This document shows, one piece after another, positions 15,206 to 15,870 of a stretch of 64,000 nt of DNA (positions within the stretch are counted from its first letter, which is position 1; every line of letters begins with the position of its first letter). The notes beneath the pieces are model-generated. The model was given only the letters and a program-made list of their open reading frames with translations. It made no database searches and had not been told where the DNA came from. The translations under genes were made by a program, and so were the position numbers. This DNA is from SAR202 cluster bacterium bin22. Lineage in GTDB: Bacteria > Chloroflexota > Dehalococcoidia > Lucifugimonadales > UBA3495. Location of the stretch: the NCBI GenBank assembly GCA_002238505.1, contig MPMM01000002.1:248001-312000 (forward strand), in the 5' to 3' direction.

Positions 15206-15239
15206 GAAACAGCCCTGACTTGCGGTTCCGGGCTGTTTC
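15206..15239 (-). terminator. Terminator of the SelW-like gene
   Basis: A perfect 10-bp stem GAAACAGCCC (15206-15215)/GGGCTGTTTC (15230-15239) with a 14-base loop follows the SelW-like stop. T-rich sequence follows on the minus strand. Confidence 0.65.
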
Positions 15240-15288: not shown

Positions 15289-15588
15289 TCAGGCGTTAGC
15301 TACCGCTTCGTCCACCTGGAAAATCTTCTCGTCGATGTCCATCTTTAGTTCGTTGGCGCGGCTGAGGTTGGGGTAAACGCCATCCTCGTCCATGCGGTCG
15401 AAGATTTTGTCGCCGTCCAGGTAAACTTCCAGCCTGCCCTTGTCGGAAGGGGTCAGCTTGATGGCGATATCGCCGGGGTTCTGGTACTTGAGAAACTCTG
15501 TCGCCAGCCACATGGCAACTGCGTGGTAGCCTCAAGGTACGCAGTAAACAATATCTACTTCAACCTTACCGAATTCTGCTCCTGGCAT
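15289..15588 (-). CDS. SelW-like (Rdx family) selenoprotein, in-frame TGA read as selenocysteine
   Basis: 99 residues if the TGA at 15532-15534 is read as selenocysteine (codon 19). The frame begins MPGAEFGKVEVDIVYCVP, then U, then GYHAVAMWLATEFL, and runs on without a stop to NA at the end. The C-x-x-U-G-Y motif right after a beta-strand is the redox centre of the SelW/SelT/SelH (Rdx) thioredoxin-like family. The later LEVYLDGDKIFDR and VYPNLS blocks are the rest of that fold. A GGGGAGG ribosome site lies four bases before this ATG. Conventional calling keeps only the part after the TGA (15289-15513) and loses the active site. A role in thiol redox control is inferred from the family. Confidence 0.85.
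15503..15531 (-). promoter_or_regulatory. Candidate bacterial SECIS hairpin after the UGA codon
   Basis: Directly 3' of the UGA, CCAC (15523-15526) can pair with GTGG (15508-15511) around an 11-base loop containing GTT. A flanking GC/GC pair lies across a small internal loop. Position and a loop carrying GU fit bacterial SECIS elements, which lie inside the coding sequence just downstream of UGA. The stem is modest and was folded by eye. Confidence 0.45.
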
Positions 15589-15870
15589 GGTCCTCCCCTT
15601 CTAGAAAGGATTGGGTCTCCTTCGGAATACGCCCGAATACAGCGGCTAGTTTAGCGCAACCGGGGTACGAGTTCAACCTGACGAGGCAGGGAGCCATGGG
15701 TAGAAATCGGGGAGGCAACAGGGGCTGCGCCTGGGGAACCCTGGAAGGCGGCGGCAATCCCTTAATCCCTTGCCTCGGAATGCGATTTACTTTCCGAGGG
15801 GTGTGGGCAGGCATTATGATAGGCGGGCTTCAGAGTTGAGGCCGCTAAACTTCTTCAAGGATTGCCAGGC

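Follow-up and report, generated by a model that had tools for sequence, protein, structure and literature searches.

A predicted SelW-like selenoprotein gene and its conserved pentapeptide-repeat neighbour in a SAR202-like Chloroflexota genome

SelW-like proteins are the commonest selenoproteins of marine bacteria, forming the most abundant selenoprotein family in both the Sargasso Sea data (48 genes; PMC1088965) and the GOS set (427 genes; PMC2398784) and contributing 11.3% of selenoprotein genes in a later marine survey (PMC9402790), in line with the remark of the first-pass annotation of this DNA that such proteins are known in bacteria. Few Cys homologs of SelW-like proteins are found in Sec-using organisms (PMC1794560), a scarcity broadly matched by the Rdx counts obtained here. 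The gene examined lies in a 64 kb stretch of DNA (the window) on contig C53 of a binned assembly of 58 contigs and 4.39 Mb, with a contamination of 3.5%, whose nearest named relatives are genomes assembled from metagenomes and labelled Chloroflexota, Dehalococcoidia or SAR202. Since SelW-like proteins already rank as the most abundant marine bacterial selenoproteins, the protein type is a known one, and the conserved gene pair to which it belongs is the less expected part.

The window gene resembles the SelW-like genes of the Sargasso Sea and GOS data (PMC1088965, PMC2398784) in its Rdx domain, its CxxU motif, a predicted SECIS element right after the UGA and a likely marine origin. It differs from them in belonging to a Chloroflexota (SAR202-like) clade that usually carries two Sec-SelW copies per genome and, relative to those genes as described, in the pentapeptide-repeat gene conserved downstream of the window copy (copy 1). 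The product is similar in sequence and predicted fold to the Rdx/SelW structures 2obk, 2fa8, 2p0g and 2oka and to mouse SelW (2npb), whereas, set against the bacterial SelW-related structures, it has a UGA codon, served by a predicted mRNA SECIS element, for the second residue of the redox pair. The downstream protein scores above the cut-off of the Alr5209 family (NF052603) and is unlike that family as described in being paired with a selenoprotein gene. Standard annotation cuts the SelW-like gene short and drops the active site, which leads to an underestimate of how much this marine lineage uses selenium; the gene's family-wide partner offers a concrete, testable lead on the role of bacterial SelW-like proteins.

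The reading frame starts at ATG 15588-15586 on the minus strand and ends at TGA 15291-15289, with codon 19 (TGA 15534-15532) as the sole internal stop in 99 residues (Table 1). The plain list of open reading frames holds only a downstream fragment at 15289..15513. The first-pass annotation had noted a strong ribosome site, had placed the ATG, the internal TGA and a normal stop of a 99-residue frame at coordinates that proved exact, had read the motif correctly as YCVP-U-GYHAV, and had stated that a frame-based caller yields just 74 residues, with which the list agrees. Read through the TGA, the product exceeds both curated model cut-offs for Rdx (SelW) membership: Pfam Rdx (PF10262) spans the TGA over residues 10-71 (E=7.9e-13, 48.9 bits against a cut-off of 22.6), and TIGR02174 (SelT/SelW/SelH) gives 41.5 bits against 34.2. 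The motif alone is weak evidence, because 26 in-frame TGAs with a CxxU/UxxC motif and minimal open flanks occur in the window; of the remaining 25, ten were translated across the TGA and compared with Pfam, and none of the ten matched a family.

Table 1. Features of the SelW-like locus, in coordinates of the window.
Feature	Position	Strand	Basis
SelW-like (Rdx) selenoprotein gene (predicted), 99 residues, Sec at residue 19	15289..15588	-	Pfam, TIGR02174, orthologs, fold match
Ribosome-binding site AAGGGGAGGA, 2 nt 5' of the ATG	15591..15600	-	Sequence; equivalent Met is the start in nearly all orthologs
In-frame UGA, predicted Sec codon, motif C-V-P-U	15532..15534	-	TGA at the site in 32/32 analysed orthologs
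Predicted bacterial SECIS hairpin, stem GUUGCCA/UGGCGAC around the apical loop (15512-15507)	15500..15519	-	Fold, compensatory changes, synonymous constraint, Sec versus Cys genes
Inverted repeat GAAACAGCCC...GGGCTGTTTC of the SelW/pentapeptide spacer, 10 bp without mismatch	15206..15239	-	Sequence; fold of the spacer
Pentapeptide-repeat protein gene, 233 residues	14416..15117	-	Pfam Pentapeptide E=6.6e-44; NF052603 above cut-off

A protein match was obtained in 52 of the 59 genomes searched (its own genome counted), nearly all with one internal TGA, and the pattern YCV[PSA]-TGA-GY is kept across the fetched orthologs while their terminal stop differs between TAA, TAG and TGA. Pooled dN/dS is 0.09 for the 13 codons that precede the UGA and 0.11 for the distal portion of the frame; therefore both halves of the frame are one protein under purifying selection. 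The upstream frame, whose disruption the first-pass annotation had named as a point to check, is thus open, conserved and constrained. The expectation of the first-pass annotation that SelW/Rdx proteins have U or C at position 19 is borne out by each of the 133 Rdx genes read from Chloroflexota (TGA 109, TGC 19, TGT 5), a count made with a search pattern that demanded CxxC or CxxU, the one hit outside it (L108) being a fragment that starts after or lacks the motif.

A selenium-dependent switch at the UGA has been considered, in which lack of selenium would release a short peptide and translation would restart at the ATG beginning at 15513, yielding 74 residues without the active site. Some termination at a Sec UGA is expected under scarce selenium, and an internal ATG does stand at 15513-15511; however, the internal Met (in AMW) is Thr, Ser or Val in most relatives and the upstream half is likewise under selection, so that with an unconserved start and a selected upstream half the restart is rejected as very improbable. 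Scarcely credible is a nonsense mutation or sequencing error that turned TGC or TGT of a Cys-type Rdx gene into TGA and left a pseudogene. The codon is indeed one base from either Cys codon and gene callers do truncate the frame, but the same TGA recurs in every analysed ortholog across independent assemblies and many genera, purifying selection acts on both sides of it, and the genome's other SelW-like copy likewise has TGA at the equivalent place; the pseudogene reading is refuted by the fact that the TGA and the frame on either side of it are conserved.

Bacterial SECIS elements are described by a loop of 3-9 nt on a stem of 4-16 bp, a G in loop positions 1-2, a spacing of 16-37 nt and a minimum free energy of -7.5 or lower (PMC13188914). 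Folding of the RNA 3' of the UGA, as the first-pass annotation had proposed, yields a hairpin that fits this model and lies within all four limits, with 7 bp, a hexaloop UGUGGC (G second), a position 19 nt 3' of the UGA, an energy of -8.6 kcal/mol and a pairing probability of about 0.78. Across 27 distinct sequences, pair 18-33 of the alignment is CG, UG, AU or GC and never unpaired, and changes on both sides are seen in two pairs. This covariation is modest, supportive rather than decisive, because its score (0.126 against 0.072 for shuffled alignments, with only 1 of 500 shuffles as high, and above all slid registers) carries no tree correction, three of the seven pairs are invariant, and the outermost pair is often broken, being unpaired in 14 of the 27 sequences.

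Synonymous constraint is concentrated in the same segment. Normalised synonymous entropy averages 0.21 over codons +5 to +10 against 0.74 elsewhere (p=5e-4), with near-single codon use in the hairpin for Ala6 (GCC, 32/32), Thr7 (ACG, 21/21) and Ala10 (GCG, 29/32). A SECIS-like hairpin follows the UGA in each of the 90 distinct UGA genes, its loop mostly 19-22 bases past the UGA, whereas in Cys homologs the hairpin is weak or missing by comparison (absent in 9 of 24), and the scores of the two groups differ at p=2e-8, uncorrected for relatedness. Taken singly, the hairpin of the window gene does not stand out from synonym-shuffled versions (p=0.12), and the SECIS case rests on the set, not on this single hairpin. 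Rfam at gathering scores returned only an ordinary tRNA from the whole window. Among the Chloroflexota Rdx genes L073-L159 the loop lies 19, 21 or 22 bases after the UGA, and the stem sequences vary by clade, for example CCGUCA/UGACGG and CCACC/GGUGG. The second Sec-SelW paralog of the genome (CVPU; G000:C33:42171-42437, L017 and L178) has TGA at the equivalent site and its hairpin at the same position as copy 1; by eye, it adjoins enoyl-CoA hydratase-like and thymidylate-kinase-like ORFs.

The assembly has a complete Sec-decoding gene set, as the first-pass annotation had implied: selA (E=1.4e-162), selB (E=6e-104, a full-length 621-residue ORF), selD (E=2.2e-115, motif CAGU) and tRNA-Sec (67.5 bits, ARAGORN anticodon tca, i.e. 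UCA). These genes are spread over several contigs of the binned assembly, and the same set recurs in relatives, tRNA-Sec being present in 51 of 59. Over 251 Chloroflexota genomes, tRNA-Sec accompanies UGA-Rdx in 81 of 90 cases and sense-only Rdx in 17 of 26 (p=0.005), a positive co-occurrence whose weight is limited by the wide occurrence of tRNA-Sec among Chloroflexota. Under strict filters tRNA-Sec was not found in 9 of the 90 genomes with UGA-Rdx (G128, G290 and seven others), some of them near-complete assemblies, where it was probably missed or is divergent. Genome-wide reassignment of UGA (to Trp or Gly, for example) or reading by a near-cognate tRNA would account for a frame open through UGA but is rejected as extremely improbable, since the window gene itself terminates in TGA where relatives use TAG or TAA, homologs have Cys and never Trp or Gly at the position, the genome holds a complete Sec system, and a SECIS-like hairpin lies 3' of the UGA.

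The window gene is thus very probably a bacterial SelW-like selenoprotein gene. Because the parts of the standard bacterial pathway are all present, we infer Sec insertion in the usual manner: a ribosome arriving at the UGA of codon 19 would meet the downstream mRNA hairpin, which would recruit SelB-GTP with Sec-tRNA-Sec, and Sec would be inserted in place of termination, with translation continuing to the ordinary stop. An AlphaFold2 model built from 12 window and locus sequences reached moderate confidence (pLDDT 64, pTM 0.56). In a Foldseek search with this model the first 20 matches were all SelW-related bacterial proteins, and mouse SelW came 21st; the matches include 2obk, 2fa8, 2p0g and 2npb, and the sequence search is concordant. 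In the model, Cys16 closes strand one and Sec19 sits in the loop leading into the first helix, as in thioredoxin-like folds, so the product is predicted, with moderate model confidence, to adopt the thioredoxin-like SelW fold. From the family motif, the Cys16/Sec19 pair most likely cycles between the selenol/thiol and selenenylsulfide states, reducing a substrate.

Directly 3' of SelW copy 1 lies the pentapeptide-repeat gene, whose protein reaches 133.4 bits with NF052603 against a cut-off of 125. This arrangement is found in 30 of 30 family genomes for which flanking sequence was available, as well as in every one of the 16 loci of a separate collection, many of them from the same species, with orthologs 49-94% identical over nearly their full length. 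The gap between the two genes ranges from about 200 bases down to zero; stop and start codons abut as TAGATG in three genomes and overlap as TGATG in one other. Around SelW copy 2 and around the SelW genes of other families in the order (20 loci), flanks of about 1.4-2.7 kb contained no such repeat gene. The neighbouring RecQ, PPOX flavoprotein and CaiB genes were set aside as a functional lead, being conserved in the nearest relatives only.

It is plausible, though somewhat short of an even chance, that in this Chloroflexota family SelW copy 1 works as a single unit with the pentapeptide-repeat protein, the two genes being co-transcribed and, in some genomes, translationally coupled, and the repeat protein acting as partner, scaffold or target of the selenoprotein. 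A simple role as thiol substrate is not supported for the repeat protein, no Cys being conserved among its orthologs. Co-transcription is not assured in the window because of the strong inverted repeat in the spacer, a possible attenuator or terminator. A promoter scan found nothing. A search of open-access papers brought up no relevant description of the SelW-pentapeptide pairing, which, if it does form a unit, would be a first genetic lead to bacterial SelW function.

Other genes of the assembly (G000) also have in-frame TGAs. The selD gene (G000:C57:40142-41065, L022) has its own within HCAGUAAK, the place where SelD usually carries Sec, so that the selenophosphate synthetase would itself be a selenoprotein. 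A large selenoproteome is suggested by family matches with one in-frame TGA each, which make up 8 of 13 for AhpC-TSA and 3 of 5 for DsbA. An AhpD-like/CMD protein (G000:C39:96900-97700, L164) has an in-frame TGA in NRCRYUASSHGG and is a candidate CxxU selenoprotein.
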